Below, piece after piece: positions 33,425-63,332 of a DNA stretch of 64,000 nucleotides. Every line of letters starts with the position of its first letter. Positions within the stretch are counted from its first letter, which is position 1. The stretch lies in the IMG/VR virus record IMGVR_UViG_3300042691_031577, positions 1 through 64,000 of that record. The stretch is one strand, 5' to 3'. Made by a program: the position numbers and the translations under genes. Under the pieces are notes generated by a model. The model had not been told where the DNA came from. It saw nothing but the letters and a program-made list of their open reading frames with translations, and did no database searches. This DNA comes from a virus.

Positions 33425-34692
33425 TATGTGAATTTTCCTATTGCTACTACTTCGTCTGTTAAATTTAATGAATAACCTATAGATGATGTATTGAAAGTTG
33501 TCACTACATTTCCTCCACTTTCTAATAAAGATACAGCAGAAGAAGGAACGTATTGGCCGTTAATATAAAACACAAAGTTACTTACTGTTGTAGCTGGTAA
33601 ACTTGATCCTGCTGGTGGTTGTAATATAGATGCACTAGTAAATGTAGCGATATTAGGAACTGTTACAGAACCTGCTATTTTAGTAATATTGGTATTAATA
33701 TATTCTAAATCAGCATTACTTGCTCCTGTGCTTGTTACATTAGTTACATTAATTCCTCCTCCTATAAATGAAGTTGCACCTGTAGCATTTTTAGCTGCTG
33801 GTTTATTTGCAAATTTCATTTCATCTATATTTGTTGTTGTTCCTGCTCCGTCTATTACTTCTAAATTAAAAACCACTTGAGATGTTGTATAAAATTTACT
33901 ACGAGCTACTGCTAAATCTTTATTTACTGTATCAGGAATGATATATCCATTTAAAACAAGATTAAAAGTAGAGCGAGCCGCTCTATCTTCTCCTTGTTCT
34001 AATAAAGTAGTTGTAGTAAATGAATCTATTCTGGCTTTGAATTTCCATCTGTTTGGATCACCCCAATATGAATCAGAAGCAAATTCAATTGCTTCTACTA
34101 ACTTATTGTTTTGTTCAACATAATCTGTAAATACAACACATGAATATGTTAAAGTAACATAATCAGGTACAGCACTCATGTAATACTGTTCTGAGGGTAT
34201 TCTATTATTTATAACAGAGAATCTATCATATGCATTTCTGATATTGTACTTTGTACCTATAACTTGATATAAATGAGCTCTATTGCCGTCTAATTTATTT
34301 CCTAATGTTCTATTTTTTTCAACATTTTCACGTTTGAACATTATAAGAGGAGCTAATCCTTTTCCGTTAGCATCACGATAGAAACCATCTGCTTGAACTG
34401 ATTTCCAACGTTCTGGAGAGCCATAAATTACAGGAACTGTTATTTGTTGTCCGTTTTGTATTACAGATGGTTTTATAACACTTTCAAAATAATATAATAC
34501 AGCATAATCTAAATCTTCTAGTCCTATACTTACGTCTTTAACAGTGTCTCCTTTAAACGAAATATCTTTACCTCTATTTTTAGAAAATACAGTATTACTA
34601 ACAGGTTTTCCTTGATCTTTTAAATAAGGAATAACTTGTTCTTGACTAATTTCAGCTGCATTTTTAGGTATAGGTTTAAGAGATCTAGCCAT
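33424..34692 (-). CDS. Tail completion/sheath-stabiliser-like protein (gp15-like)
   Basis: 422 residues. The segment ITVPVIYGSPERWKSVQADG, with APLIMFKRENVEKNRTLGNK, YMSAVPDYVTLTYSCVVFTD and DRAARSTFNLVLNGYIIPD, follows the pattern of T4 gp15 homologues in T4-like phages (VPVIYG-PERW ... PLIMFKR). gp15 caps the tail and binds the sheath end. The C-terminal 150 residues are Ser/Thr-rich and look like an added domain. The order next to neck genes supports it. Confidence 0.65.
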   Translation of the reverse strand: MARSLKPIPKNAAEISQEQVIPYLKDQGKPVSNTVFSKNRGKDISFKGDTVKDVSIGLEDLDYAVLYYFESVIKPSVIQNGQQITVPVIYGSPERWKSVQADGFYRDANGKGLAPLIMFKRENVEKNRTLGNKLDGNRAHLYQVIGTKYNIRNAYDRFSVINNRIPSEQYYMSAVPDYVTLTYSCVVFTDYVEQNNKLVEAIEFASDSYWGDPNRWKFKARIDSFTTTTLLEQGEDRAARSTFNLVLNGYIIPDTVNKDLAVARSKFYTTSQVVFNLEVIDGAGTTTNIDEMKFANKPAAKNATGATSFIGGGINVTNVTSTGASNADLEYINTNITKIAGSVTVPNIATFTSASILQPPAGSSLPATTVSNFVFYINGQYVPSSAVSLLESGGNVVTTFNTSSIGYSLNLTDEVVAIGKFT

Positions 34693-35054
34693 TACTGTTG
34701 TTTTCTTTGTAATTCTAACATTTTATCTAATGCTAATATCATTTGGGCGGCTTTATATAAATAACTATTAGCGTCTTTAGCTACTTTAGCTATATCTTCA
34801 TTAGTAGAATATTTAAATGCCTGTACTTCTCTTCTGTATTTTAAAACATTTCTTCGTATTTCATCAAATTTAGGAAGTGCTTCAAACTCTTGTGTATAAG
34901 CGCCGGTTTCAGGATCCATAGAAGTTTTTATACTTTTATATCCTCTTTCAAAAGCCTCATCACCTTTTTTAGGTTTAAAAGCAGCTACTTTTTCACCACT
35001 TTTCCCAGTTACAGGGATTTCAGCTTCATTTAATATATCTAATAATTTAATCAT
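34692..35054 (-). CDS. Small protein with capsid-targeting-like N-terminus, 120 aa
   Basis: I choose the ATG at 35054 (MIKLLDILNEAEIPV); the longer frame to 35135 overlaps the neck gene and would place the ATATTTAT motif inside the coding sequence. The first 12 residues look like a targeting peptide ending in a Leu-Asn-Glu cleavage-type site. The rest is helical and charged (AFERGYKSIKTSMD, FDEIRRNVLKYRREVQAF). Function unknown. Confidence 0.65.
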   Translation of the reverse strand: MIKLLDILNEAEIPVTGKSGEKVAAFKPKKGDEAFERGYKSIKTSMDPETGAYTQEFEALPKFDEIRRNVLKYRREVQAFKYSTNEDIAKVAKDANSYLYKAAQMILALDKMLELQRKQQ

Positions 35055-35065
35055 GTTAATAAATA

Positions 35066-35602
35066 TTATAATCTTGTTTGAGTTATACCTAATATTTCTG
35101 GTCTCATATAATGGCATGTTACTATGATCGACCATGATGAACCAAAATTATCTGTGTTAGTTGAATAAGAATAGTTATAATCCTTACCTACAACTAACTG
35201 ATTTTCGTTTACATTGTCTACTTCATAGTAATCGTTATTCCATAAAACAACATCTCCTATCTCAGGTACTATGTTATATGTAAAGCCTCTAGCATCTGGG
35301 CCAAGTTCGGTGCTTAAGTCAATACCTGCGAGATCATCGCGTAAAAAGCGGCAAGTAATATTACGATTTATATCAGGTCCAAAATCATCTGTTGTTGAGA
35401 TAGTATCTCCGCGTTCAATTAAACAATTTAATAATACCGGGTCATTATATGTCTTTTTAGGAGCCTCACCATACATGTTAGGTAAAGAACGATCCAATAC
35501 TATTTTATAATATCCTACCTTTTGCTCAATGATATCATTGAGTAATTCTCTATTTATATGTCTAAATAGACTTATATCCCTATTTGCTCCAAATAAACTC
35601 AT
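35066..35602 (-). CDS. Neck protein, gp14-like
   Basis: 178 residues. Conserved-looking segments are DISLFRHINRELLNDIIEQ, GYYKIVLDRSLPNMYGEA, PVLLNCLIERGD and DDFGPDINRNITCRFLRDDL. These resemble neck/head-completion proteins of T4-like phages (gp14 type). It sits between gp15-like and gp13-like genes, the T4 order for neck proteins. Assignment is by pattern and position. Confidence 0.6.
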   Translation of the reverse strand: MSLFGANRDISLFRHINRELLNDIIEQKVGYYKIVLDRSLPNMYGEAPKKTYNDPVLLNCLIERGDTISTTDDFGPDINRNITCRFLRDDLAGIDLSTELGPDARGFTYNIVPEIGDVVLWNNDYYEVDNVNENQLVVGKDYNYSYSTNTDNFGSSWSIIVTCHYMRPEILGITQTRL

Positions 35603-35940
35603 TATAGGGTAGTTATTTTTTCTAAAGTTTTAAACCTAGGCATAAATTTTAATAATCCTGGAATTTTTTGGGTCGCTAAGGCTCTTCTTTTAATTTCTGC
35701 TATTGATTCTTTTGGATCTTTTCTCACAATATATTTCATATGCAGTAAAGCATATTCAGTTTGATCTGTAATTAAAGTATTTAGATAAGTATTTTGTTCT
35801 ACTTTAACAACAACAACTCCATCTATACCTCTAATTTCATTATAGATATCTACTTTATTTGCTTGTCTTTCTACTTTAATCATTACTTCTATTTCATATA
35901 TAGAAAGTACTTCAAGTAATAAATTTTGTAATTTTACCAT
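35602..35940 (-). CDS. Small alpha/beta protein in neck cluster, 112 aa
   Basis: N-terminus MVKLQNLLLEVLSIYE resembles a targeting-type amphipathic peptide. The core (EIEVMIKVERQANKVDIYNE, VVVVKVEQNTYLN, YALLHMKYIVRKDP) alternates strands and helices like a ferredoxin-type fold, followed by a basic tail. No family recognised. Its ATG overlaps the neighbouring stop. Confidence 0.55.
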   Translation of the reverse strand: MVKLQNLLLEVLSIYEIEVMIKVERQANKVDIYNEIRGIDGVVVVKVEQNTYLNTLITDQTEYALLHMKYIVRKDPKESIAEIKRRALATQKIPGLLKFMPRFKTLEKITTL

Positions 35941-35943
35941 AGC

Positions 35944-37101: not shown

Positions 37102-37146
37102 ATTATATTATTGTAAATATTGTTATATCATATAAATATATGACTA

Positions 37147-39817: not shown

Positions 39818-39844
39818 GTGTTTTACTATAAATATTGGAAAATA

Positions 39845-40592: not shown

Positions 40593-40883
40593 TTAGATAT
40601 TTTCAATAAAGGTATATTCTGATTCGTCTGATATTTTGTTAATAAGTTGACGAAAATCACTACTGCTTAATTTATTTCCTGGTATTAGGTTAGGGTTTCT
40701 TGGGATGATTACGTCATTTACTATTGTATATACATCATCATGTGAAATTTCATTGTTGTTATAGTTATTATCCATATAAAATATAACTTTATCATATAAT
40801 GTATTTAATAAACTATTATTGTTTTCATTTATAATCCCAGCTAACTGCTGCATTCTTTTGATTTCATTAATTACTGTTTTCAT
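40593..40883 (-). CDS. Putative packaged protein with capsid-targeting-like N-terminus, 96 aa
   Basis: Starts MKTVINEIKRMQQLAGIINE, nearly identical to the start of the gene at 44397 although the rest of the two proteins differs. This is what the propeptide of T4 internal proteins looks like: a conserved N-terminal peptide ending hydrophobic-x-Glu, then an unrelated cargo. The cargo here is helical (SLLNTLYDKVIFYMDNNYNN). It lies two genes after the major capsid gene. Function of the cargo unknown. Confidence 0.65.
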   Translation of the reverse strand: MKTVINEIKRMQQLAGIINENNNSLLNTLYDKVIFYMDNNYNNNEISHDDVYTIVNDVIIPRNPNLIPGNKLSSSDFRQLINKISDESEYTFIENI

Positions 40884-41433
40884 GTATATAAATATTATCA
40901 GACTTTACTCTATTATCAGTTATTGTAAGTGGTTGGGTATTAGTGTAGTGGAATGATCCGCCTTTAGCTAACGGATATATATGATCTATTTCCCAATATG
41001 AACCATAATTATCCCAATTTATTTCTGGTGTGAACATTGGTTCAAGGTATTCTTTGTATTCTTGTATTGTACAACCTAAATATTCAATACTACTTTGTGA
41101 TTTACCTTTTTTAAGGTGGTGGTTGATGAGAGCGTTGATTGCGTGGCGGAGACGGAATAGTGGGTCTGTATCCATTTTATACCTATTCCATTCGCGGTAG
41201 TAGTCTTTATTTGTATGATAATGTTCGTTTACTAATTTTTTATGGTATTCTTTGTTTTCTTCTCTCCATTTTGATGTACGAGTATTGTGTTCGTCTTTGT
41301 GAGTAGAATAATATTGTTTACCTTCTACTTTTTGACAGTCTACACAATAACGATGTAGTCCGTCTTTTTCTCCTTTGCGTTTCCAATATTGATCTAGTGG
41401 TTTATCAACACCACATTTTTTACATGTTTTCAT
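40867..41433 (-). CDS. HNH homing endonuclease with N-terminal zinc finger
   Basis: About 188 residues from the ATG at 41433 (MKTCKKCGVDKPLDQYW). Two C-x2-C pairs (TCKKCG, RYCVDCQ) form a treble-clef/zinc finger. The C-terminal HNH core is WEIDHIYPLAKGGS, with a downstream TNTQPLTITDNRVKSD for the N and second H side. It sits just after the major capsid gene; the longer frame would pass through the capsid terminator, so the shorter start is preferred. A free-standing selfish endonuclease. Confidence 0.85.
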   Translation of the reverse strand: MKTCKKCGVDKPLDQYWKRKGEKDGLHRYCVDCQKVEGKQYYSTHKDEHNTRTSKWREENKEYHKKLVNEHYHTNKDYYREWNRYKMDTDPLFRLRHAINALINHHLKKGKSQSSIEYLGCTIQEYKEYLEPMFTPEINWDNYGSYWEIDHIYPLAKGGSFHYTNTQPLTITDNRVKSDNIYIHENSN

Positions 41434-41457
41434 ACGTGTATAAATATACAAAAGAAA

Positions 41458-41479
41458 GGCCGGACTACAAAGTCCGGCC
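41458..41479 (-). terminator. Intrinsic terminator after the major capsid gene
   Basis: GGCCGGACT-TTGT-AGTCCGGCC followed by TTTCTTTT on the minus strand, 41 nt past the capsid stop codon. It is the most GC-rich stem in the structural block. Confidence 0.9.
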
Positions 41480-41519
41480 ATTCTCTTTTTAACCTTACGG
41501 TTAGTTATGTTATACTAGA

Positions 41520-43115
41520 TTAAAGAGTATTTAAACCAGCAACATATACCTTCCCATAATAATCTGGACGTATCATCTTCTTAGCGTAACGAGTCATCAA
41601 ACCTTTACGTGGAGTGAAGGTATTTGGATCGTACAGAAGTGGAGTCATGATCAACGGAACGTATGGAGCGAATACAGCACCACACTCTAGGAACTGAGCA
41701 CCTTTGTAACCCATTAAGATTACGTTTTCAGTCATGTATGGATTTTTGTATACTTTGTAGCGGCTGTTTAAGCTACCGATTTTCTGGATACCAAAGTTGT
41801 ATTCCATTTTCTCACCATCACCATCTGATGCGAATCCAGGGATAGATTCTAAGATAGTTGCTACGGTAGGTGAAGTAACTAAGAAGTTAGCGCCACCACG
41901 TAGGGTTAACTGATGAATTTTGTTAGATACTTTCTGTAATTTGGTACCTAAAGTTTGGAACCAACCACCTTGAGTGTTATAGAAACCTAAAGCGTTGTTA
42001 GTTACACCACTAGCACCTACAGCTTGATTGTTAATTGCTGACCAGTATTCAGTTGTGAAAGCGTTTTCGATTAACATATCTAACAATTCAAGATCAATTT
42101 CCATTGAAATGTATTGTGATAAGATACCAGTTAATTCAGCTTCAGCGTCTACTGAATGGTAAGCGTTCAAATCTTGAGCGAATTCAGGTGTCCATTGAGC
42201 TTTCAATTTGCGTGTTTTAGCAACGATAGCTTCAGATTTTAACTGAACGTTAATTTCTGGGATAGAAATTGCTGAATTGCTAAGAGCGTTAGGATAACCA
42301 GCACCGCTAGCATCTTCGAAATCACCACGTGAAGTAGCTGTAGGTTGTACGTTGTAGAATAATACTACAGTTTGAGTAGGGTTATTAGATACTAATGAAC
42401 CAGTTACTACGAATGAAGCTGTGTTGTTGGCTACAGTAGTGTAAGTTTGTAAAATATCAGTAGCGGTAATTGAACCTGAAGTGAATACAAACGCGCGTAC
42501 ACCATTTTGGTCAGCAGCAGTAGGTAGAGGAACATTAATTACTTTGTAAGTAGAGAATGAAGATGTGTAATCAGCATCTAAGTTAAATGTAGCCCAGCTA
42601 GTTGAACCAGTTGTAGCAGCGATAGAAGCTGAGAATTGGTTAACAGAATAACCGAATCTACCAGCACCATATAATGAAGCTGAAGCGATATCAGTTACGT
42701 TTGTAGTTGCGTTAGCACCATACAATGAACCGTTAGTAGCGAATGGTTTTACACCAGTACCATATTTGAAATCAAGATAGAATACAAGACCTGAAGGTAA
42801 GTTCATAGGTTGTACACTAACGAATTCTTTTGCAGCGATTTCACCGAATACACGGCGAACTAATGGAAGGGCAACACCGTTCCAGCTCTCACCACTGTAA
42901 GTACCAGCACCAGATGCTTGAGTACCAGTTTGAGAAGTTTCTACTACTAATTGTTTTGCTTGATTTTCTAATAACATAGCCATTGTGTTACGGCTGTTAT
43001 TGTCTTTTAAACCTTCTAATAGGCCTGATTTTGCCCATTTGTCTTGAAGGCGTTTTGCGTCATCTTGAACCGATTTAAATTGGTTTGATGATTCTAATAA
43101 TTGTTGAATGTTCAT
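41520..43115 (-). CDS. 23: Major capsid protein
   Basis: 531 residues, the length of T4 gp23 precursors. N-terminal pro-region (IQQLLESSNQFKSVQDDAKR, then MAMLLENQAKQLVVE) precedes the mature start, followed by VALPLVRRVFGEIAAKEFVS, NLPSGLVFYLDFKYG, IPEINVQLKSEAIVAKTRKL, AQWTPEFAQDLNAYHSVDAE, and LIMTPLLYDPNTFTPRKGLM, all T4-like capsid signatures. The N-terminal 60 or so residues would be removed by the prohead protease (a LxE-type site is LLEN). Its terminator gives it a transcript end directly after the gene. Confidence 0.95.
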   Translation of the reverse strand: MNIQQLLESSNQFKSVQDDAKRLQDKWAKSGLLEGLKDNNSRNTMAMLLENQAKQLVVETSQTGTQASGAGTYSGESWNGVALPLVRRVFGEIAAKEFVSVQPMNLPSGLVFYLDFKYGTGVKPFATNGSLYGANATTNVTDIASASLYGAGRFGYSVNQFSASIAATTGSTSWATFNLDADYTSSFSTYKVINVPLPTAADQNGVRAFVFTSGSITATDILQTYTTVANNTASFVVTGSLVSNNPTQTVVLFYNVQPTATSRGDFEDASGAGYPNALSNSAISIPEINVQLKSEAIVAKTRKLKAQWTPEFAQDLNAYHSVDAEAELTGILSQYISMEIDLELLDMLIENAFTTEYWSAINNQAVGASGVTNNALGFYNTQGGWFQTLGTKLQKVSNKIHQLTLRGGANFLVTSPTVATILESIPGFASDGDGEKMEYNFGIQKIGSLNSRYKVYKNPYMTENVILMGYKGAQFLECGAVFAPYVPLIMTPLLYDPNTFTPRKGLMTRYAKKMIRPDYYGKVYVAGLNTL

Positions 43116-43140: not shown

Positions 43141-44178
43141 TTACTTAATAATGTTAGCTAGTTTTTGCATACGTGAAATAACGTCATTTGACTCTACGAT
43201 TTGTTTCTTAGGAGCAATACCTGCTGCTTTTGAAGCAAATCCTAAAGATTCCTTAATAGGTGATTTCTTTTTAACTGCGCTTAAAGTAGTTTCTAATGAT
43301 TCGTAAACCATTTTAGCTTCTTTAGGTGTAGTTGCTTTGTCGAATGATGCAATCACGTTTAATTTTTGAGATTCAGTTAAGTTTTTAGATTTGAAAATTT
43401 TGTTAACGTAAAGCAATTTAGCGTTTAATAAATTCACTTCATTTAATTCTTTACGAAGTGTATTAATTACGTTAATAGCTTCTTTCATTTCTTTTTTCTC
43501 TTCTTCTTTCTCTTTTTTCATAACTTTTTTCTTTTTAGCTTCTTCTAGTTCTTCATTTTCATCTAATGATTCTAGTTCAGCTAGTAATTCGTCAAGATTG
43601 ATTTCTTCTTCGTCAGACATTTCCATTTCTTCACCACCCATTTCATCACCCATGTCCATACTCATTTCTTCTTCACCGGCTTCAGCTCCCATTTCTCCTG
43701 TTTCCAATTCTTGGCTAACGATGTCTTTAATTAGATCTTTAAGATCTTCAATAGACATGTCTTTAACTTCCATTTCTTCTTCTTCAGTTTCTTCGGTTTC
43801 TTCTTCGCCTTCTTCTTCACCTTCTTCTTCTTTTTCTTCTTCTTTCTTAGCTTCTTCTAAAGTTTCTTCAGCTTCTAGTTCAGCTAAAATAGCAGATAGA
43901 TCGAATTCTTCTTCAAGATTGAAATCAAGATTAGCATCACTGTTTTCTTCGTGAGATGATGTAAATCCTTCTTCCATTTCTTTTTCGCCTTTTTTCATAG
44001 CTTCTTCTTCCATTCCATATTCTTCATCCATGTCCATCTCGTTTAATTTAGCGACTAACATGTTTTGAATACTTGGAGTCAAAGCTTCTTCAAGGGCTTC
44101 TTTTGCGTTTAACAACGCTGCTTCGCGAACGGCTTTAGCGTCAACGATAGCCTCTTCAAATAGTTTTTTGTTTGACAT
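43141..44178 (-). CDS. 22: Prohead core/scaffold protein (gp22-like)
   Basis: 345 residues, extremely acidic: residues 55-215 are mostly Glu/Asp/Met (EEEKEEEGEEEGEEETEETE), flanked by helical segments. It directly precedes the major capsid gene, as T4 gene 22 does. The C-terminus ends DVISRMQKLANIIK, a near copy of the end of the 53930 gene and close to the MQQLAG motif of two targeting-like N-termini. Several LxE sites could be cleaved by the protease. It alone in this window has a strong Shine-Dalgarno (AAGGAGGAC, 6 nt before ATG) and a long leader. Confidence 0.8.
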   Translation of the reverse strand: MSNKKLFEEAIVDAKAVREAALLNAKEALEEALTPSIQNMLVAKLNEMDMDEEYGMEEEAMKKGEKEMEEGFTSSHEENSDANLDFNLEEEFDLSAILAELEAEETLEEAKKEEEKEEEGEEEGEEETEETEEEEMEVKDMSIEDLKDLIKDIVSQELETGEMGAEAGEEEMSMDMGDEMGGEEMEMSDEEEINLDELLAELESLDENEELEEAKKKKVMKKEKEEEKKEMKEAINVINTLRKELNEVNLLNAKLLYVNKIFKSKNLTESQKLNVIASFDKATTPKEAKMVYESLETTLSAVKKKSPIKESLGFASKAAGIAPKKQIVESNDVISRMQKLANIIK

Positions 44179-44396: not shown

Positions 44397-44753
44397 TTAC
44401 ATTTTGGTTATCATATCAAAATCACCTTGTGATTTGACTAACATTATATCTTTCATTTCTGCATCTTCTCCTGGTTCAGGAACATATCCTCCTGGGGGTT
44501 GGATAGGTTTACTTAATTCTATATTTAATATATCTGTTGGATTGTTATCTGACATTATGTCATAATGTTGGATTTGTGTTATTACTCCTGTTAAACCTTC
44601 ATAATATTCTATAGGATTTTCAAATCCATATGCATACATTACTTCAGGATTAAATCTTACTTTATCTCCTACTTTAAAATTAGAAGAATATTCTTCTTTA
44701 ATCAATCCAGCTAATTGCTGCATTCTTTTAATTTCATTTAGTTGTGTTTTCAT
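44397..44753 (-). CDS. Putative packaged protein: targeting-like peptide plus SH3/KOW-like domain
   Basis: Starts MKTQLNEIKRMQQLAG, then LIKEE (candidate protease site). The rest (FKVGDKVRFNPEVMYAYGFE, YYEGLTGVITQIQHYD, NIELSKPIQPPGG) is a small beta-barrel of SH3/KOW type. Lies next to the prohead protease gene and ends at a terminator. A packaged or core-associated protein is inferred; the barrel's partner is unknown. Confidence 0.65.
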   Translation of the reverse strand: MKTQLNEIKRMQQLAGLIKEEYSSNFKVGDKVRFNPEVMYAYGFENPIEYYEGLTGVITQIQHYDIMSDNNPTDILNIELSKPIQPPGGYVPEPGEDAEMKDIMLVKSQGDFDMITKM

Positions 44754-44771: not shown

Positions 44772-45392
44772 TTAACACAAAGCACATACTCCTGTTTGAG
44801 TACATATGATTTCTGTAATTAATTCGTTTACTTTACTATAATTTTTATCTGATTGATATTGTTTACCTTCAGATAATGTCATATATGCGTTTGGAGTACT
44901 AGGTACTGAAACTAAATCCCAGCATAGTAATTCAAAATCGTCTTGAACTTCAACAGTTTCACCTATTTGGCGTACTGAGCCCATACCTCTTGATGATATA
45001 CCTAATGGAATATTAGCTTTAATAATTTCTTGAGCGATTTTACCTGATGGAGTATTTAATAGAGTTAATTCTCCCATTACATCATTACCTTCCCACCATA
45101 TTTTAGTAATTAAGTGAGATACATTACTTAAATTAATGATAGATGATTCAGGGTGATCTAATTCACCTGTTGATGTTCTAGTTTTTAAAGGACCATTTAT
45201 ATATTTGTCTATTTGTTCCTTTAAAACATTAAGAGGATAAACACGACCATTACCGTTTTTAACACCGGCTTCTTGTAATTTACCTCTAACGCGCATCAAA
45301 CCATCGCCTAGTTTACTGTCTTTTCCTTCAGTAATAGGTTGTAGTTTGGCTACGTGGAACGGTATATGATCTACTAGTAATTGCTTATTCAT
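44772..45392 (-). CDS. 21: Prohead core protease (gp21-like)
   Basis: 206 residues, the T4 gp21 length. Conserved features: NGRVYPLNVL, STGELDHPESSI (catalytic His of the gp21 family), IKANIPLGISSRGMGSV (nucleophile Ser in SSRG) and DDFELLCWDLVSVPSTP. It is the herpesvirus-assemblin-like serine protease that matures the prohead and removes targeting peptides at hydrophobic-x-Glu sites. An internal LQPITEG may be an autocleavage site. Flanked by candidate substrates on both sides. Confidence 0.92.
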   Translation of the reverse strand: MNKQLLVDHIPFHVAKLQPITEGKDSKLGDGLMRVRGKLQEAGVKNGNGRVYPLNVLKEQIDKYINGPLKTRTSTGELDHPESSIINLSNVSHLITKIWWEGNDVMGELTLLNTPSGKIAQEIIKANIPLGISSRGMGSVRQIGETVEVQDDFELLCWDLVSVPSTPNAYMTLSEGKQYQSDKNYSKVNELITEIICTQTGVCALC

Positions 45393-47555: not shown

Positions 47556-47686
47556 TATCGTCCTTGTCCTCTATAGTTTTGTTCTGAGCTATCGTGTTTG
47601 TTAGTGCGTTTTTGAGCTTTGCCTTTTTTACGAACGCCAAAGCTTATTTTACGTGATTCTTTAGATGCTGCTTTTGCTTTTGCCAT
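47555..47686 (-). CDS. Small basic protein, 43 aa (short ORF)
   Basis: ATG at 47686 encodes MAKAKAASKESRKISFGVRK, then KGKAQKRTNKHD, ending YRGQGR. About one third is Lys/Arg. Stop and start codons overlap neighbours on both sides (start at the stop of the 369-residue gene, stop overlapping the next ATG), which supports it as a real gene. It may be a core or DNA-binding protein, like small basic head proteins in other phages. Confidence 0.75.
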   Translation of the reverse strand: MAKAKAASKESRKISFGVRKKGKAQKRTNKHDSSEQNYRGQGR

Positions 47687-48795
47687 TACTGGTAGATTGA
47701 TTTAATTTTATTGCTAATTTTATTTGATATTTCACTAATTTCATTTATAGCTTTTAAGCTACGCTTCCAATAGTTTGTACCATCTTCGTTTTCACTTAAT
47801 TCTTGTTTAATACGAGTAGTATATTCAATTAATTGATCTACTTCAGATAATTTACGTTTTACTTCACGAATACTTTTATGAAGCATTTCTGCTTTAGTTC
47901 TATATTTAACTTCGTTTTTAAATTTATTATACGATACTTCGTTTAATAATTCTTCTTTAATAAGATTATTCAACACTTCTTCTAAAGGATAATCAAATGG
48001 TTCTTCACCTGTTATTTTACTACTTTTAATATATTCTATTAAAGATTCAATATTATTAAAATAAGTATATCCTTCTTCTCTTCCTAAATTATCTATTTCT
48101 AAAACAAAATATGGTTTATCACCAGATGTAGTTTCTCCACATATTAAAGTCATAAATCCAGAACCATCTGCATAATCAACAGGTATTTGTACTCTGGCTA
48201 AATTTTTATTTTTACCTGAATAAACTATTTTAGCTTCTTCAAAAATAGGTTTTATTGCTGATAGTATATTATTTGCAGATTCTTGGTATTTAATATTTTG
48301 TTCATTCATTGCTGATTTTTTACCTTTCCAAAGTTCTTTATAATCTAACATTTTAGAATTTTTAGGCATACCTTTAACTGTTTTAAATCCCATTTTTTCA
48401 GCGTATTTAGTTGCTTTATTTTTCTTTTGTCCTTTAGGAGCAAAAGCATATGGGGTTTGAATAGGACCTGCTCCAACACCAATAGCGCCAGTAGCTGATT
48501 CTTCATTCATACCCATTAATTTTTTATACATAGATAAATCAGATAAGCTTTGACCTTCAGGATTCTTAGCTAAGTTATCTATTTGATCAATAGTTACTTC
48601 ACCTGAATCAAGTGCTTTTTTTAACCAAGTACCATTTATTATGTTATGTTTATATAAAAATGATTTAGCTTTATCATCATTTCTAGTATAAATATTTAAC
48701 CAATTATATAATGTATCCCAGTTACTAGATTCATTTTCAAGAACATTTTCTAGTTCTTCTTTAATAATCTGTTTTAATAAAGATACTTTCATCAT
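47686..48795 (-). CDS. Putative packaged protein with targeting-like N-terminus, 369 aa
   Basis: Starts MMKVSLLKQIIKEELENVLE, a strong amphipathic peptide with multiple hydrophobic-x-Glu sites. Residues 30-60 are a small helical domain; residues 180-270 form an alpha/beta domain (NLARVQIPVDYADGSGFMTL, GDKPYFVLEIDNLGREEGYT), followed by long helices. Located between portal and protease genes. Family unknown. Confidence 0.55.
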   Translation of the reverse strand: MMKVSLLKQIIKEELENVLENESSNWDTLYNWLNIYTRNDDKAKSFLYKHNIINGTWLKKALDSGEVTIDQIDNLAKNPEGQSLSDLSMYKKLMGMNEESATGAIGVGAGPIQTPYAFAPKGQKKNKATKYAEKMGFKTVKGMPKNSKMLDYKELWKGKKSAMNEQNIKYQESANNILSAIKPIFEEAKIVYSGKNKNLARVQIPVDYADGSGFMTLICGETTSGDKPYFVLEIDNLGREEGYTYFNNIESLIEYIKSSKITGEEPFDYPLEEVLNNLIKEELLNEVSYNKFKNEVKYRTKAEMLHKSIREVKRKLSEVDQLIEYTTRIKQELSENEDGTNYWKRSLKAINEISEISNKISNKIKSIYQ

Positions 48796-53270: not shown

Positions 53271-53933
53271 TTATTTTACTACAAGTATTACAGTTAAAAT
53301 AGCAGCAACAGCAGTTACGGCCTTAGTACTTAATTTTAAAAGCTTATTTTGAGTATTTACTTTAGTATACTCTTTATTTAAAGTATTATACTTTACATCT
53401 TGTAAAGATATGATATTTTGTTGTGCTGTATCTTTTATTTGGAACGAGTGTATAGTACTGTCTTTAATGACTATCTGTTGACCTAATACAGTGTTAATAC
53501 TATCAGCATATGATAAATCTTGTCTATCACCATCACAATATAATAGATCACGAGCAGCACCTACTGCTGATTCCTTAGGTAAAGAAAATGCTGTTTTATC
53601 TTCAGTTGGGTATCTGTCTACAAAAAATTTATGTAATGTATCTGAATTAGATAAATTAGGGTTATTTGCTTTTTTATTAGCTTCAGCTCTAGCTTTATTT
53701 CTTTCTTGGGCTAAATAAACTACTTGTTTTGCTAAAGCTGAGTCCTTTTTAGCTAAACCAGCAATAATTAAATTTTGTTCGTCTACAATTATTTTTTCAG
53801 AATCAATTACTTTATTCAAGCTATCTATTGTTTGTTGAAATTTAGCGTCCGACGGACCATTACAAACAGAATAAGTAGTAAGTAAAATACCTACTACTAT
53901 TCCTATTAATAACCATATTAATTTATTTGTCAT
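53271..53933 (-). CDS. Membrane-anchored coiled-coil protein (spanin-like?)
   Basis: 220 residues with a hydrophobic segment at each end: LIWLLIGIVVGILLTTYSVC (5-24) and AVTAVAAILTVILVV (about 205-219). The middle is charged and helical with repeated coiled-coil patterns. This topology resembles spanins or other envelope-bridging lysis proteins, but a lipobox is not convincing (YSVC). Could also be an endolysin partner or an injected protein. Overlaps the upstream gene by 4 bases. Confidence 0.55.
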   Translation of the reverse strand: MTNKLIWLLIGIVVGILLTTYSVCNGPSDAKFQQTIDSLNKVIDSEKIIVDEQNLIIAGLAKKDSALAKQVVYLAQERNKARAEANKKANNPNLSNSDTLHKFFVDRYPTEDKTAFSLPKESAVGAARDLLYCDGDRQDLSYADSINTVLGQQIVIKDSTIHSFQIKDTAQQNIISLQDVKYNTLNKEYTKVNTQNKLLKLSTKAVTAVAAILTVILVVK

Positions 53934-54826
53934 TTTATTATATTTGCTAACTTTTGGAACCGTTCCATTATTTCATCTTCAGATGGAGCGTTTTTTTCTT
54001 GTTCTACTTTATTTCTAACGTATTCGTTTGAATCAATTATACTTTGAACACGTTGTTCAAGAGATGCTTTTAATTTAGTTAAACGTTCTACTTCGCTTGA
54101 ACCTAATGATAAATCATCTCTACTTTTACCCATTTTTTTAGCTTGTGTTAATGCACTTTTAGTTCTAGCTAAACGTTCTTTAAATTTAGAATAATCCATC
54201 CAAGCATTATAATCTTCATCTGATAATCCTCCTACTGATGGTCTGTCCATTGGTAGTTCTGGCATTTCTGGCTCTTCCTCTTCTTCAGGTTGAGGCATAC
54301 CAGATGGGAAAAATTCACCTGTTCTTCCACCTATGAAAAAATCTTCCATACTGGGTGGTCCTGAGACTGTTTCAGGTTCACTAACTACTGTAGTCTCTCC
54401 CGTTTCATCATCCACTACTACTTCACCCATTTTAGCTATAACACCGGCATCTTTCAAACCATTCATTAACGCATTTGCTATTTGTGGACGAATAAAGTTA
54501 AATTGATCTTGGATATCTTTCTTTTCTACACCTGGATTCTCTTTAATGTAATTAATAACATCAGCTACTGACACACCACTAATCATTTTAGTAGCATATG
54601 GTGTGGTATCAAATTCAGGATCAACAATTTGGTATCCTTTAGCTTTACGAGCCATTTCCGTTACTTTTTTATATTTTTGTTGAAAAGCAGAAGATTTTTC
54701 TGTATTATCATCAGGATCAATTACTGACGATAAACCTTTAGTGGCATCTGTTGGATTTTTTAATGTATATAATCCTACTTCTGATATTACTTCTTTAACT
54801 ACGGCACGAATTTGTTTCGGGGTCAT
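53930..54826 (-). CDS. Putative packaged/core protein with targeting-like motifs at both ends, 298 aa
   Basis: I prefer the ATG at 54826 (MTPKQIRAVVKEVISEVGLY) because the longer frame to 54853 begins inside the ATATTTAT motif. The N-terminus is of the targeting type. A winged-helix-like stretch follows (GVSVADVINYIKENPGVEKK, then DIQDQFNFIRPQIANALMNG). Pro/Glu-rich linker, coiled coil, and an end EIMERFQKLANIIK that nearly equals the scaffold C-terminus. Suggests a scaffold-associated or packaged protein; DNA binding by the winged helix is possible. Confidence 0.6.
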   Translation of the reverse strand: MTPKQIRAVVKEVISEVGLYTLKNPTDATKGLSSVIDPDDNTEKSSAFQQKYKKVTEMARKAKGYQIVDPEFDTTPYATKMISGVSVADVINYIKENPGVEKKDIQDQFNFIRPQIANALMNGLKDAGVIAKMGEVVVDDETGETTVVSEPETVSGPPSMEDFFIGGRTGEFFPSGMPQPEEEEEPEMPELPMDRPSVGGLSDEDYNAWMDYSKFKERLARTKSALTQAKKMGKSRDDLSLGSSEVERLTKLKASLEQRVQSIIDSNEYVRNKVEQEKNAPSEDEIMERFQKLANIIK

Positions 54827-54858
54827 GATGTTTGCGTTTATTTCTGTATACATAAATA

Positions 54859-55389: not shown

Positions 55390-56073
55390 TTATATTTTAA
55401 ATTTCCAAATAAATCCTCCTGCTGTTTTTTGTTTACCTTTACAGCAAGCCTGTATATCTCCTTTTCCTATATATTTTTTAGCTTCAACAATTGAAGGCCA
55501 TTCTTGAATAAAATCACCTTCTAAATTATATTGGTTAATTGGTTTACTATTAGCTAATCTTACTCCTTTTATTATATTGTCTTTTTTTAATTTTATGTTA
55601 TTTTTATGACTTTCAGATTTAAATTTTCCTATAGCTGATTTTCTCATTTTTTCTTTTGTTATCTCAGATGGAAACTTTCCTATCATTGATATTCTTTTTT
55701 TATTTTTAGTTTCATTAGAAACTATTTTTCCTTTATTAGATTTACTAATTTTATTTTTAGTTTCTTCTGATCGAGGTCCTGTTCCTCTGTCGTATAATTC
55801 ACAAAACAATACTTGTTTCCAATCTCCATTTACTTGATCTAAATAATATTGTTTCCAATATATTTCTCTTTCATTTAATTGTTCTAAATTGCATTCTTCA
55901 ATTATTTCAAATATGTGTTGTTCCCAACCATATTTTTGATATGAATTATATAGTTTAGAACCTATATGAGATTTACTTTTATGTTTATGTTGGTATTTTC
56001 TATTTTGTATATTAATAGATTGTCCTACATAAATTTTACCTTTAGGATTTGTTATTTTATATATTCCTGTCAT
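55390..56073 (-). CDS. GIY-YIG homing endonuclease with NUMOD modules
   Basis: 227 residues. The GIY-YIG domain starts GIYKITNPKGKIYVGQS and carries RKYQHKHKSK and NEREIYW (Glu about 69 as catalytic). Then NUMOD3-like helices (RSEETKNKISKSNKGK repeated) and a C-terminal NUMOD1-type module (INQYNLEGDFIQEWPSIVEA). A free-standing selfish endonuclease inserted between accessory genes; its codon use and Ile/Lys richness differ little from neighbours. Confidence 0.88.
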   Translation of the reverse strand: MTGIYKITNPKGKIYVGQSINIQNRKYQHKHKSKSHIGSKLYNSYQKYGWEQHIFEIIEECNLEQLNEREIYWKQYYLDQVNGDWKQVLFCELYDRGTGPRSEETKNKISKSNKGKIVSNETKNKKRISMIGKFPSEITKEKMRKSAIGKFKSESHKNNIKLKKDNIIKGVRLANSKPINQYNLEGDFIQEWPSIVEAKKYIGKGDIQACCKGKQKTAGGFIWKFKI

Positions 56074-56380: not shown

Positions 56381-56385
56381 AATTT

Positions 56386-56628
56386 TTAAACTCTTGCTCC
56401 TGTATTTTTACCTATAGCGGTTTTAAACCATGGTAATCCATTAGTATCACGTTTACGGTCTATCCAATCCTCTTTTGAATATTGAATACCGTAGATATAA
56501 TATTCTGCTAATTTCATGTTACCTTGAGGGATTAAGGCTGGGCCATCCCAGTTATGGAGCTTATTTACTCCTGTTGTGTCACTATAATGTAATATAGTAC
56601 CGTCTTTCGTTCTAAAAGTTCTTGTCAT
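56386..56628 (-). CDS. Small hypothetical protein, 80 aa
   Basis: Contains FRTKDGTILHYSDTTGVNKL, HNWDGPALIPQG and AEYYIYGIQYSKEDWIDR. The DGT...HxxNGPA...YYxYGxxxS pattern resembles MORN-like or phage hypothetical proteins with NGPA motif. Function unknown. It ends at a strong terminator. Confidence 0.55.
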   Translation of the reverse strand: MTRTFRTKDGTILHYSDTTGVNKLHNWDGPALIPQGNMKLAEYYIYGIQYSKEDWIDRKRDTNGLPWFKTAIGKNTGARV

Positions 56629-56669
56629 ATTTTTACTTTCTTTTTTCGAAAGTTAATATTTCTTTTTCA

Positions 56670-57686
56670 CTAATCCAAGCCTGAAAGTTCGGTATCATCT
56701 TTCTTCAGATCTACCTCAATTTCTTTCATCGTGTCTGCTGCCCATTTCTTTTGAGCTGGGGTTAATTTATTATTAATGATGTTTTCTATAAATAGAAGGA
56801 AATTTTTATCGTCTAATTTATATACTTCAGCAAAGAATAATTCACGAACACGAGCATCTTCTATATTACTTTGGTTATATAAGTTTGATAAAGCATCATA
56901 AATAAATTTACCATATTGAAAATCACGAGGTTCGTTTGATACTTTATCTACTTTACCAACAATAGCTTTATTTTGTTCTTTATCAGTTCCAAATCCTTCT
57001 GTTCCTACTATTTCATATAATCCTTTTACTATCTCATGAAATAACATAGGAAAACATATAGCTCTTGCTTTAATAACAAATCTATCTTCTTCTTCATCAT
57101 ACACCATTTCAGATGATCCACCACTAATATTTTGTTTTTGACCAAGAGCCGCTAACATCATAGCGATAGCATTCTCATCATCATATATACCAAAAACTAG
57201 TTTCATTATTTCGTTGTATTTTTCAACTAATTCCGGACTTAAATCATCTAAATGTTCTCTAAATAATAAGAAACCAAAAGTTCCACGTACTGATGCGCCT
57301 TGAGTGATACCGTTGATTATACGGCGTTTTTTCTCCATAGCTTCGGTATCAGTTGATGGTATTTCGTCTATAGATATTTCATCTTCATCTTCATTTTGTT
57401 GAACTTGACCCATACTTACTATTTTAGCATCTATTTTTACATTAGCATAATCTAAAATAGGGTAAGCTTCTCTAGCCATAATTTCAGCTATCATTGCTAA
57501 TTCAATACGGTAATCAGATTCAGCCTCAATAATTTGACTTAGTAATTCCTGAGAACGCATCATTGTTTGCATTAGATTTTTGTTACCTAACATAGCACGC
57601 AATGATTCACCTGACTTACCTTTTAAGGCAGCCATTGTTTCAGGGCTGAATATATCTTCGTATTCTACTTCTAATAAACGTTTCAT
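56670..57686 (-). CDS. Hypothetical protein, 338 aa, possible packaged protein
   Basis: N-terminus MKRLLEVEYEDIFSPETMAA, with LLE and VEYE sites of the targeting type. Mostly helical, with a central acidic loop (NEDEDEISIDEIP, about 98-110) and conserved-looking VRGTFGFLLFREHLDDLSPE. No motif recognised. The ATG overlaps the stop of the upstream ExoX-C-like gene. Confidence 0.5.
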   Translation of the reverse strand: MKRLLEVEYEDIFSPETMAALKGKSGESLRAMLGNKNLMQTMMRSQELLSQIIEAESDYRIELAMIAEIMAREAYPILDYANVKIDAKIVSMGQVQQNEDEDEISIDEIPSTDTEAMEKKRRIINGITQGASVRGTFGFLLFREHLDDLSPELVEKYNEIMKLVFGIYDDENAIAMMLAALGQKQNISGGSSEMVYDEEEDRFVIKARAICFPMLFHEIVKGLYEIVGTEGFGTDKEQNKAIVGKVDKVSNEPRDFQYGKFIYDALSNLYNQSNIEDARVRELFFAEVYKLDDKNFLLFIENIINNKLTPAQKKWAADTMKEIEVDLKKDDTELSGLD

Positions 57687-58159
57687 TATTTTGTTTTTTT
57701 AGCTTTCATAAAACGAGCAGTAATCTTATCAATCATTTCCTCTTCCTTTAAATTTTTAGGAGCAGGTTTTACATCAGGATTACCAATTCTTCTACGTTTA
57801 GGTTCGTCTGGAGTCACTTTAGGTCTAGGTAAAACTGCTGGTTCACTTGGTGTAGTAGCTGGTTTAGGTTGATTTTCGTTTAGTTCTTTACGAATTATTT
57901 CACGAATAGCTTCGCGTAGTTGTTTAATTTTCATATTTTCTTTTAATTTAGTTCTAGGTAATTTCATTCCTGCTACCGCAAAATTTGATGGAATTAGGTT
58001 TAGGCGTTGCTCTAATGCATTATCAGGAGCAATGGCGCGTTTTTCAACCCATAACCATTTAAGATATTGTGGATCAATTATCATTATATCAGATACTAAT
58101 CGGTTTTTATATTTACCAAATGGTATTTTAGATGATAATGTTAAAGTAACAGGGATCAT
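57686..58159 (-). CDS. ExoX C-terminal-like domain joined to an internal targeting-like peptide, 157 aa
   Basis: Residues 11-45 (KIPFGKYKNRLVSDIMIIDP then QYLKWLWVEKRA) match the small domain at the C-terminus of ExoX-like exonucleases, also found alone. At residue 76 a second Met begins MKIKQLREAIREIIRKELNE, just like the N-terminal peptides of other genes here, followed by a Pro-rich tail. Two in-frame products from starts at 58159 and 57934 are possible. Overlaps the oxidoreductase gene by 4 bases. Confidence 0.6.
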   Translation of the reverse strand: MIPVTLTLSSKIPFGKYKNRLVSDIMIIDPQYLKWLWVEKRAIAPDNALEQRLNLIPSNFAVAGMKLPRTKLKENMKIKQLREAIREIIRKELNENQPKPATTPSEPAVLPRPKVTPDEPKRRRIGNPDVKPAPKNLKEEEMIDKITARFMKAKKTK

Positions 58160-59511: not shown

Positions 59512-59642
59512 ACTTTATAAATTTAATATCTTTATTTTGACTTTCAAACTAAGGTGGCCCACCTTTTAGGGGTGGGCCACAGCTCCATAATTTTATCTCT
59601 TACGAGCGACCGGCTATGAATCGGTCTATAAATTATTTATTT
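59512..59642 (-). terminator. Intergenic region with two hairpins
   Basis: No ORF. GTGGCCCACC/GGTGGGCCAC (59554-59580) is a 10-bp stem and GACCG/CGGTC (59608-59626) a smaller one. The T-run after the large stem is weak (CTTAGTTTG), so it could be a terminator or a processing/stability hairpin upstream of the oxidoreductase gene. Confidence 0.5.
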
Positions 59643-60014
59643 TTATATCATCTTTATATTAGCTACAAATTCTTTTACGTAATTATCTATTTTATTTTTC
59701 TGTTTTTCGGCTTCTTCTTTAGTAAATAATGTTACTTTAATATCCCCCATAGGATGATTAAATAAATCATTTTTAGTTTTATATTGAGCCGGGATACTAC
59801 TCCCGTCTTTGTATGTACCTATAAAATATCGTCTAACTTTATCTCCATATATTTTATCAACGTTTATATCGTTAATATTTACTTCTAAGTCTTTTAACTT
59901 ATTTATAGTTTTTTCTACTTGTTGATATTTTTTAAGATCCTCTACAGGAATTAACTCAATGTAGTATTTTTTATTACTATCTATTTCTTGGATTATGTTT
60001 ACTAACTTAATCAT
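59643..60014 (-). CDS. Hypothetical protein with targeting-like N-terminus, 123 aa
   Basis: MIKLVNIIQEIDSNKKYY start; the first 10 residues match the MIKLxxIIxE type. The rest (YYIELIPVEDLKKYQQVEKT, IYGDKVRRYFIGTYKDG, ITLFTKEEAEKQKNKI-like) is an alpha/beta small domain. Function unknown. Overlaps the next upstream stop by one base. Confidence 0.55.
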   Translation of the reverse strand: MIKLVNIIQEIDSNKKYYIELIPVEDLKKYQQVEKTINKLKDLEVNINDINVDKIYGDKVRRYFIGTYKDGSSIPAQYKTKNDLFNHPMGDIKVTLFTKEEAEKQKNKIDNYVKEFVANIKMI

Positions 60015-60451
60015 TATTGTACATTATATTCGTTATTACCAATTTTTAGTTTAGTAATAGTATTAACGTTTATCATTCTGTATCCACCTGTTTTTACATC
60101 ATATACAGGAATTAATCCTTTTTCATCTGGATTGTAAGGTAATTCGCCACCTTTTAAATAAACTTTAACACCTAAACGAGCATTCATTACGCGAGTAGTA
60201 CCATCTTTTTTAATAAAAGTTACAGTAAAAAACTTACCTTTAGTATCTTTAATTAATTGTTTAGCTTGTTCTTTAGTAATAGACCCAGCTGGGGTTTCAG
60301 GAGTTTCAGCTTCTGATGGTGCTTCTTCTGGTGAAGGAACATTAGCTGGTTCTTGTCCCGGTCCTGGGGTAATAGGAGGTAAATCTTCTTGTTCTTTAAG
60401 ATATTGAGATATAGTTTCTCTGATTAATTGGCGTAATACTTTGCTGTTCAT
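60014..60451 (-). CDS. Putative packaged protein: targeting-like peptide, Pro/Glu linker, DUF2693-like domain
   Basis: 145 residues. MNSKVLRQLIRETISQYLKE start, then a Pro/Glu-rich linker (PSPEEAPSEAETPETPA), then a beta domain GKFFTVTFIKKDGTTRVMNA, KVYLKGGELPYNPDEKGLIP, GYRMINVNTITKLKIGNNEY. The last domain is like DUF2693-type small domains of Bacteroides and their phages (function unknown, SH3/WYL-like). Three-part layout suits a delivered effector; untested. Confidence 0.65.
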   Translation of the reverse strand: MNSKVLRQLIRETISQYLKEQEDLPPITPGPGQEPANVPSPEEAPSEAETPETPAGSITKEQAKQLIKDTKGKFFTVTFIKKDGTTRVMNARLGVKVYLKGGELPYNPDEKGLIPVYDVKTGGYRMINVNTITKLKIGNNEYNVQ

Positions 60452-60498
60452 TTTTATTGTTTTTTACAAAGATAATAAAGGTACCTTGCCAATAAATA

Positions 60499-61236: not shown

Positions 61237-61282
61237 ATGATTTTTTTTAAAATATAAAACTTATTTTTTGCCTATCCAAATT

Positions 61283-61810
61283 TTAGGCAGCAGGAGTTTC
61301 CTCAGGTGCTGGCGTTTCTTCAGGGGTAGGTACTTCTGAAGGTGGGGCTTCAGGTGTTGGAGGAATACTTCCTGCTTCTAAATCAGCTTTAATATCAGTA
61401 TTACGTTGTGATGCTAATTCTTCTGCTGACTCTTTAGGAGCATAATTTAGTTCAAGTAAATCTGCTATTGCTTGTGATGCTCTTTCAGATTCTCCTATGT
61501 TAATTGGATTATATTTTTTTCCAGATACTTTTACAACAAAATTATTTTTTCCTAAATATATCATTGTAAAGTCTTGTCCATTAATTAACCCAATACCAAA
61601 TGTAGTTGGTTTAGGAGCTATTAATGAAACATCTGCTATATATCGTCCAAAAGCAGGTGACATTAATTCTTCTAATGTTTTCTTCAAACCAGGAAAGCGA
61701 TGTATTAAATACATTGCTTTTTCAGCTTGTTTTTGTTGCTGTTCTTCTTCCTTTAAAGCCATACGAACAGCTTTTTTAATATATTTTTCTAATAACAGAG
61801 TCTTATTCAT
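61283..61810 (-). CDS. Putative packaged protein, 175 aa, Pro/Glu-rich tail
   Basis: [20 protein letters not shown] then EEEQQQ: amphipathic N-terminus with Leu-Lys-Glu site. A central alpha/beta portion ([40 protein letters not shown]) and a C-terminal low-complexity [13 protein letters not shown] tail, similar to the linker of the gene at 60014. Stop/start overlap with the upstream gene. Confidence 0.55.
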
Positions 61811-62270
61811 CGTCTCTTAATTCATGAAAACCTTGAGCTGCTTGCTCAATATAGTTTTCAGCATTGGTAATATGATCTTGAATCCATCCTGGGATGTTAC
61901 GTTCTACTGTTCCTATCTTTTGAGACAATTCCATAGCTGCTTTAGCAATAGCTTCTAAACTATTTTGAGCCATAGCAACTTCATGATCCATACCTTCTTT
62001 TTTAATATTTTTAGATATTGTCTTACGGCGATTTAAAAGATATTTATCTGTTTTATCAACTTTACCGTCATTGTTTATATCTTTATCTTCTTTACCTACT
62101 GGGTCTAAAGCTTCTTCTTTTTTACCTTTACCCATGGCTTTAGCTGTAGCTATAGGACCTGCTTTTTCAGGAGACATCCCTGAGTCAACTAAGGCATCGT
62201 AAATTTCTCCACGCTTTTTCTTTTGGCTAGGAGTCATTTTTTTCTCTAGTAAATCGATTAATTTTATCAT
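61803..62270 (-). CDS. Small protein with EF-hand-like loop and targeting-like N-terminus, 155 aa
   Basis: [20 protein letters not shown] start; then a helical part ([20 protein letters not shown]), then [16 protein letters not shown], which is a canonical EF-hand/dockerin calcium-binding loop (D-x-N-x-D-G-x-V-D-x-x-D at about 63-74). C-terminal helices. Possibly stabilised by Ca2+ inside the capsid. Overlaps the downstream gene by 8 bases and the upstream gene by 4. Confidence 0.6.
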
Positions 62271-62644
62271 TTTAAAAAGCGTAATTTATAGATGGTTGAA
62301 TTAATAAGAGCAACAACTTCATCAATTTGATTTTGAATATATGAATCTTGGCAAAGCATTGTTCTACTTTTTTCAATATAAGAACAAAGTACAGTAAAAT
62401 ACATAATGATACCTTCACAGCTTTGATATTCTTGTAAAGCAACATTTGTATACCCAGTAACGATACCGTATTTACCTTGATATGATTCTACTATACCGTC
62501 AGTTATACCTACAATTTCATCATAATATTCATTTAATGCTTTATGAGCAGCAAATGAAGGTGTTTGTAGATGAAATACATGAGCCTGCGTACGAGACGCC
62601 ATTAACGTAGAAACAAATTGACCCATTAATGCGTTATGTTCCAT
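62267..62644 (-). CDS. Dps/ferritin-like protein (DUF5856-like)
   Basis: 125 residues. [23 protein letters not shown] then [13 protein letters not shown] matches the helix-A/helix-B region of Dps-type proteins (H-x-x-H...PSFFAxHxxFxxxYDEL...DxxAER), with remaining helices after. Dps proteins bind DNA and iron; phage versions are of unknown function. It lies inside the packaged-protein cluster but has no targeting-like start. Confidence 0.72.
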
Positions 62645-62648
62645 TATT

Positions 62649-63332
62649 TTATTTTTTAACTACTTTTTTTAGTATAGCACCAGCTACTTTTTGACCTGCT
62701 TCTTTTGAACCGTATTTTTTAGCTGCTGATTTAGCTATTTTGGCAAATCCTTTACCAGGTTTACCTACGTCTTCACCTTTTTCAAAGCGAGCTTCTTCCA
62801 TTTTTTTATCATCGCCTTTTGGTAGACCTTTTTTGTAACTTCTATATGCGCTACCTATTGCTGCTCCTATTCCACCTACAGTTCCAGCAGCTGCTGCAAT
62901 TTGTCCTATGAGTTCTCCTACTGAGATATTCATGGATTTGGCTAAATCTGTAAGAGGTCCCATAATTTCTGACGAGAGACCTTCGTTTATTTTTTTAGCT
63001 TCGTCTAATTCTTTTTTTTCAGATTTTTTAGGACCTTTAGAATTTTTATCCATTGTTTTTTTCTGGTCTTCTAGATCTTTTTTCTTAGTTTGTAATTCTT
63101 TAATACTAGCTTCCATATCATCCATCATATCACCTATAATTTCTGAGGAAACATAATATTTTAAACCATCCATTGATGTTAATGCTGTTTTAACAGACAT
63201 AGCATCTTTAATATCTTCGTCTACTTTTTTAATTTTAGCTTCCAAAGCAGCTATATCACCAGCCTCGTCTATCATTTTGATACGGTCAGCAATTGCTTCT
63301 TTAATTAATTTCTTTAATTCGGATTGTTTCAT
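62649..63332 (-). CDS. Putative packaged protein with coiled coil, hydrophobic segment and basic tail, 227 aa
   Basis: MKQSELKKLIKEAIADRIKM start (LIKE-type site), coiled coil (about 28-110, with many Lys/Glu/Asp), a hydrophobic Gly/Ala segment GELIGQIAAAAGTVGGIGAA (about 138-158) that could cross a membrane, and a Lys-rich end (AGAILKKVVKK). The layout suggests a protein that leaves the capsid with DNA and enters the envelope. Inference only. An ATATTTAT motif lies 16 nt upstream. Confidence 0.6.
   Translation of the reverse strand: MKQSELKKLIKEAIADRIKMIDEAGDIAALEAKIKKVDEDIKDAMSVKTALTSMDGLKYYVSSEIIGDMMDDMEASIKELQTKKKDLEDQKKTMDKNSKGPKKSEKKELDEAKKINEGLSSEIMGPLTDLAKSMNISVGELIGQIAAAAGTVGGIGAAIGSAYRSYKKGLPKGDDKKMEEARFEKGEDVGKPGKGFAKIAKSAAKKYGSKEAGQKVAGAILKKVVKK

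Follow-up and report, generated by a model that had tools for sequence, protein, structure and literature searches.

Three kinds of portable N-terminal tag in a T4-like phage, one of which looks derived from the tail of a gp22-like scaffold

In this study, we examined the first 64 kb (the window) of the 110,141-base virus record IMGVR_UViG_3300042691_031577 and asked why a number of small proteins encoded there, otherwise unrelated, begin with similar short peptides. An original prediction had taken these starts for one large peptide family, akin to the capsid-targeting sequences (CTS) of phage T4 that the gp21 protease removes. Rather than one family, we found three distinct motifs, referred to here as tags of class A, B and C. 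Judged from its sequence, the phage is T4-like, and it appears probable that the tags are a much enlarged set of T4-type CTS, at least one kind of which imitates the scaffold.

Three tag motifs and the scaffold tail

The three motifs, all at the N-terminus of small proteins, read M-I-K-L-x-[DN]-[IL]-L-x-E (class A, in short MIKLxDILxE), M-x-x-S-x-L-R-x-[IL]-I-[KR]-E-x-[IL] (class B, MxxSxLRQLIKExI) and M-K-x-x-[IL]-N-E-[IA]-K-R-[MWF]-Q-x-L-A-G-[IL]-[IL]-x-E (class C, MKxxINEIKRMQQLAGIIxE). Tags were scored with profiles trained only on other contigs, the internal Met positions of the same genome serving as controls for each class. Ten of the 14 genes named in the original prediction outscore all controls of their class (34692, 35602, 40593, 44397, 47686, 53930, 59643, 60014, 61803 and 62649); 26709 is borderline (score 8.7, control maximum 10.7), and 61283, 45395 and 56670 fit none of the three profiles. 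These numbers had been given as gene starts; they are the low (3′) ends, and every one of the listed genes lies on the minus strand, as do almost all genes of the window. The top class B control (23.9) is apparently itself a tag, internal to the open reading frame (ORF) 57686-58159 and overlooked before; it sits behind an ExoX-like C-terminal domain (PF20600, 2.3e-8) and may instead be an internal translation start. Three class B genes (84675, 68101 and 67472) score under this control. They are among six tagged genes beyond the window; in the record, five fall at 66.2-68.7 kb and the sixth at 84.7 kb (class A: 66,191, 66,870 and 67,112; class B: 67,472, 68,101 and 84,675). All N-terminally tagged genes lie between 34 and 85.5 kb, a region holding 62 of the 153 ORFs (hypergeometric P 1.4e-7, with bounds picked post hoc).

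The class C core recurs at the C-terminus of the putative scaffold of the same genome, a likeness absent from the original prediction and, on sequence comparison, the new point of this analysis. The scaffold gene lies between those of the prohead protease and gp23, and its product is acidic and helical, as in a gp22-type scaffold; the best PHROG match to known gp22 profiles was no better than E 0.18, so the name gp22-like rests on position and composition. Here the protein ends in VISRMQKLANIIK before the stop codon, and it ends in the class C core in 44/44 relatives, with R336, L340, A341 and I343 of the tail invariant in an alignment of 51 relatives. The scaffold stops at the point where the cargo tag runs on into a predicted cleavage site. 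AlphaFold models the tail as a short helix (331-340) behind a disordered stretch, at low overall confidence (predicted template modelling score, pTM, 0.29).

When a profile of the scaffold tail only was run over 260,076 sequence windows of all other proteins, the top matches were N-terminal tags and C-termini, with a few tags in internal positions; six of these C-termini proved to be scaffolds missed by our first filter. The tail is also seen in distant phages, where it reads VSRWQKLAGIIK (Flavobacterium phage immuto), VERMKKLAGIVK (Mel-JY01), LERIKRLAGL (RM378) and KSRMQKLADIS (a 484-kb phage), each directly before the stop. In the whole genomes of RM378 and Mel-JY01, searched with a loose pattern, the scaffold tail was the only match with a preceding start codon. 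In immuto the loose pattern matched at the tail, at two N-terminal tags and once within an ORF of 754 residues; its tagged starts include MKKQILSEQFRRMQKLAGIITES and MKKSQLRQIIKEAL, with an ITE or IKE site. RM378 and Mel-JY01 thus have the tail without the tag, so the tail is the more widespread of the two, and the class C tag looks derived from it.

Putative cleavage sites, modularity and the T4-type head

As had been predicted, a hydrophobic-x-Glu site lies near the tag end: [LIVMF]xE occurs within the first 23 residues in 16/16 N-terminally tagged genes, and N-terminal peptides of 10-20 residues with the [LI]xE end of a T4-type CTS are present. After the class C core, [ILVMF]xE follows within six residues in 116/125 cases (93%), as against 7.1% of body windows, an excess whose binomial P is not literal because the sequences are related. 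Glu is commonest at +4 after the core, and it is followed mainly by Ser, Asn, Ala, Glu or Gly. In T4, gp21 cleaves after L/I-x-E (PMC9026906). The gp21-like protease of the original prediction (peptidase S77) is indeed encoded here, in one genome with the gp22-like scaffold and gp23.

This association extends to other phages, for which we counted head genes in the 34 tag-bearing records only. We found gp23 in 21 of them and S77 in 19 of those 21; in the two gp23 records without S77 the capsid gene is near the contig end. Four further tag-bearing records have a T4-type portal, three of the four at a contig end.

Class A also shares the layout of T4 IPIII, where targeting depends on residues 4 and 7 and processing on residues 8 and 10 (PMC9026906). 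Among class A N-termini outside the search pattern, which are profile-chosen members, positions 4, 7 and 8 are hydrophobic in 99-100% and Glu10 is present in 90%; the layout does not apply to classes B and C.

The peptides are short, amphipathic and Lys-rich, and 3 of the 14 listed cases fall outside all classes, as might be expected of secretion or membrane signals, or of chance Lys/Leu-rich starts in an AT-rich genome. We regard this explanation as most improbable, as the tags have fixed acidic residues and no long hydrophobic core, and chance as their source is excluded by the sequence counts. In 80 contigs carrying protease relatives, the class C motif was counted 51 times within residues 1-30 but only twice over 238,000 residues of internal sequence. 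A degenerate class C DNA pattern matches 76 IMG/VR stretches and its codon-scrambled version none; the corresponding class A pattern matches at least 119, its scrambled version again none. The class C pattern had no match in the GTDB genome set, which represents 84,980 species by one genome each, and a literature search for the motif strings turned up no paper on phages.

Behind the tags, the proteins differ. No two tagged bodies of this genome are related (every pair has E >= 0.4), in line with the original prediction, and the same holds on a larger scale: 71 class C tags gave 65 usable bodies in 54 clusters, and 106 class A tags gave 99 bodies in 35 clusters. The profiles reach well beyond this phage, with 481 of 5,042 distinct ORFs tagged across the related contigs analysed; their bodies form 188 clusters, 12 of which hold more than one tag class (clustering was by single linkage, so that multi-domain members may join some). 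The same peptide is therefore found on unrelated proteins, and related proteins carry different peptides. The body of 60014, tagged with class B, shares 77.6% identity with that of a class C-tagged protein in L193 (4e-53); an immuto class B protein likewise has a counterpart in L060 of 67% body identity that bears class C (1e-77). Tandem tags are seen as well, C with B in L016 and L105 and A with C in L198, and L021:10611-12122 has in order a class A tag, a domain with a HELIH metallopeptidase-like motif, a class C tag and a hydrophobic domain. Taken together, the swapped classes, the tandem tags and the tags inside polyproteins indicate that the tag acts as a peptide, and on sequence grounds the classes look interchangeable.

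Two further observations concern these proteins. L021:10611-12122 and L052:9439-10506 are one ORF each, with internal class C tags separating domains, like cargo polyproteins cut by a head protease. A basic protein ending in GYW has a class A tag in L196:1596-2204, class B in the present record (68,101-68,748), and in immuto (101,270-101,827) its start is of a third type.

Codon choice at some positions of the tags is more uniform than expected, for instance AAC for N6 in class C and ATA for I7 in class A, a sign of DNA segments being copied; the promoter-like octamer ATATTTAT also lies upstream of several tagged genes. The conserved starts might on this account be a DNA or RNA signal, such as a late promoter or translation enhancer, or a recombination anchor, with no role for the peptide. 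This we consider very unlikely. The amino acids are conserved while many synonymous sites vary about like background, and the motif is found also within proteins and at C-termini; on these points a signal at the start site was rejected. Further, the closest pair, 40593 and 44397, has near-identical starts as predicted, the first 60 nt aligning with 51 matches over 61 columns, but over the 60 nt before the start the alignment is poor (38 of 67 columns). Recombination may well be the route by which tags have spread.

For the tags as T4-type CTS, we infer a sequence of core binding, cleavage, packaging and delivery. The short helical tag would draw each protein into the prohead core during head assembly, and a gp21-type protease would cut after [ILVMF]xE at the tag end; the freed body would remain in the head and probably be ejected along with the DNA. 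The three interchangeable classes would serve sorting, and class C would imitate the C-terminal tail of the gp22-like scaffold, such that cargo enters the core like a scaffold molecule. We lean, by a modest degree, towards a fuller version of this scaffold mimicry, in which phages of this group have made their own scaffold tail, and perhaps other core-protein helices, into a portable, cleavable label, and with two more interchangeable labels load fast-changing enzymes and possible anti-host proteins, some of them as polyproteins cut by the head protease.

Several results weigh against these proposals. Within a genome, the tag and the scaffold tail co-vary weakly. Nine of the 34 tag-bearing records, mostly fragments of 46-76 kb but also G006 (114 kb) and G021 (173 kb, with an atypical MIKLTDIFKE), show no T4 head gene that we could recognise. 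The class A profile does not recognise T4 CTS sequences, the IPII/IPIII start ranking 23-24 of 281 T4 starts, and a class A donor, looked for in the scaffold and in the core-like protein, was not found. The protein 45395 of this phage has no class B-like helix (score 2.9), and the class A and B profiles were iteratively refined on the same kind of data, with related sequences. The original idea of T4-type CTS with a gp21-type protease is nonetheless well supported by S77, the [ILVMF]xE sites, the unrelated bodies and the swapped tags; what it does not have is homology to T4 CTS by score.

A few narrower tests can be added here. Searches with phrog_207 and phrog_138 in records without S77 or gp23 gave no match, nor did the controls. 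For covariation of Met and Trp between tail and tag, Trp tags occurred only with Trp tails (5/19 vs 0/20), a weak result that includes near-duplicate contigs. Class A as a copy of scaffold segments was rejected, its best windows being reached by 72 of 300 shuffles, and a derivation of class B from the scaffold helix around residue 150 is suggestive only (8 of 300 shuffles reach the score). A better class B donor is the 45395 family next to the protease, with a class B-like helix in 34/60 relatives, often near the C-terminus.

Probable cargo and neighbouring genes

What the tags carry bears on a further explanation, that they anchor minor structural proteins of the prohead core, these being core builders or head parts of which none is active in the next host. 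Some tagged proteins (47686, 53930 and 35602) do have head genes as neighbours and are found again in relatives, and the 53930 protein has a class B tag first and the scaffold-tail motif last, as its relatives have (for example RMQYYAGIKK before the stop). Most bodies, by contrast, are unrelated and vary between phages, and some are enzyme-like without a structural role, such as superoxide dismutase and zeta-toxin-like kinases. As a general account we find anchoring unlikely, while it can be true for a subset of tagged proteins.

The class A bodies, which would be cargo under the preferred reading of the tags as targeting sequences, include Fe/Mn superoxide dismutase and zeta-toxin-like kinases, with weak matches to 5′-nucleotidase, HAD phosphatase, kinase and ADP-ribosyltransferase families; weak Kinase-PolyVal and ART-PolyVal matches lie under curated cut-offs. 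The body of 60014 is a WYL_2 barrel (PF10902, 1.2e-8), while 61803 (dockerin-like) and 66191 (DUF5872) match below cut-off and many other bodies here are unassigned. For class C bodies, Pfam gave essentially no matches. T4 is known to package an ADP-ribosyltransferase that modifies RNA polymerase, and an inhibitor of restriction endonuclease (PMC9958956).

Two examples stand apart. L216:5505-6206 and L246:7741-8442 each encode a complete Fe/Mn superoxide dismutase with the class A tag MIKLTDILKE, which would make an enzyme against oxidative stress a possible content of phage heads. In the 484-kb phage, a row of paralogs (LR756508.1 177,696-182,386, L285) has class A-like starts and YRG/YLYR motifs recalling ADP-ribosyltransferases; Pfam had no match for these repeats.

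The features of the window are collected in Table 1. A portal is also encoded (phrog_213, 2.7e-60). The closest cultured relative is Flavobacterium phage immuto (capsid protein identity 60.6%), which suggests a Bacteroidetes host. The conserved protein 45395-47152, upstream of the protease, differs strongly in length among relatives. ORFs 55390-56073 and 40867-41481, amid head and packaging genes, look by eye like mobile endonucleases (a GIY-YIG-like and a zinc-finger HNH-like start, respectively). In the whole 110-kb record, ATATTTAT has 53 copies on the coding strand and 5 on the other; it stands within 60 nt upstream of 33/105 genes below 91 kb and of only 3/48 above, and may be a late-promoter element comparable to that of T4.

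Table 1. Tags, scaffold-tail motifs and head genes of the window
Feature	Position	Strand	Details
Scaffold tail, class C motif	43144..43188	-	NDVISRMQKLANIIK, then stop; 44/44 relatives
Scaffold-tail motif at C-terminus of ORF 53930-54853	53933..53968	-	MERFQKLANIIK, then stop
Class B tag of ORF 62649-63332	63264..63332	-	MKQSELKKLIKEAIADRIKMIDE, next residue A; body cluster also has class C-tagged members
Class A tag of ORF 61803-62270	62241..62270	-	10 residues; by profile score
Class B tag of ORF 60014-60451	60392..60451	-	MNSKVLRQLIRETISQYLKE, next residue Q
Class A tag of ORF 59643-60014	59985..60014	-	MIKLVNIIQE, next residue I
Internal class B tag in ORF 57686-58159	57872..57934	-	MKIKQLREAIREIIRKELNEN, residue 76
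Class B tag of ORF 53930-54853	54779..54826	-	MTPKQIRAVVKEVISE, next residue V; start is second ATG, residue 10
Class B tag of ORF 47686-48795	48736..48792	-	MKVSLLKQIIKEELENVLE, next residue N
Class C tag of ORF 44397-44753	44694..44753	-	MKTQLNEIKRMQQLAGLIKE, next residue E
Class C tag of ORF 40593-40883	40824..40883	-	MKTVINEIKRMQQLAGIINE, next residue N
Class A tag of ORF 35602-35940	35911..35940	-	MVKLQNLLLE, next residue V
Class A tag of ORF 34692-35135	35025..35054	-	MIKLLDILNE, next residue A; internal ATG, common to relatives
gp21-type prohead protease (peptidase S77)	44772..45392	-	PF03420 1.1e-32; phrog_207 9e-54
gp22-like scaffold, acidic, helical	43141..44178	-	Synteny (between protease and capsid genes), composition; alignment of 51 relatives
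gp23-type major capsid protein	41520..43115	-	phrog_138 4.6e-73

Comparison with known systems

Short amphipathic N-terminal helices that send unrelated cargo into a protein shell are known from bacterial microcompartments as encapsulation peptides, which class B may resemble. The likeness would be convergent at most; in the present case the shell would be that of a phage head, and the tag is followed by a protease site.

Giant phages of the phiKZ type offer another comparison. In SPN3US and phiKZ, the prohead protease removes N-terminal propeptides of head proteins, some of which are ejected, and SPN3US gp53 and gp54 begin identically although the proteins have diverged (PMC5694885). Most of those propeptides exceed 100 residues, and they have no confirmed counterpart in the scaffold, whereas the tags described here have 10-23 residues, are modular and in one class match the scaffold tail. 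A further comparison is with the polyvalent proteins of phages and conjugative elements, among which are effectors that phages package and that contain kinase, ADP-ribosyltransferase and metallopeptidase domains (PMC5512222); polyvalent proteins are large, multidomain and found by domain content, while the bodies described here are small, single-domain and recognised by the tag. As a rule for finding packaged and probably injected phage proteins, the tags could flag hundreds of uncharacterised proteins of environmental phages as likely head cargo, including superoxide dismutase, zeta-toxin-like kinases and weak ADP-ribosyltransferase-like matches, and three portable kinds of tag could help to load proteins into phage heads.

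The nearest parallel is the T4 CTS itself, carried by the gp21-processed IPI, IPII, IPIII and Alt. It is likewise a short N-terminal peptide (10-20 residues) with an L/I-x-E end, in front of unrelated bodies and in a genome with an S77 protease, and T4 MKTYQEFIAE has, like class A, hydrophobic residues at 4, 7 and 8 and Glu at 10. The differences are equally clear: there are three motif classes here and one in T4, at least 16 tagged genes in this genome and few known in T4, and tandem and internal tags occur here. Moreover, class C copies the scaffold tail, whereas the tail of T4 gp22 (SVYAKVASRF) and the T4 CTS are dissimilar. How certain proteins localise in the T4 scaffolding core was still called mysterious in a 2023 review (PMC9958956), and the match between a cargo tag and a scaffold tail makes this question directly testable.

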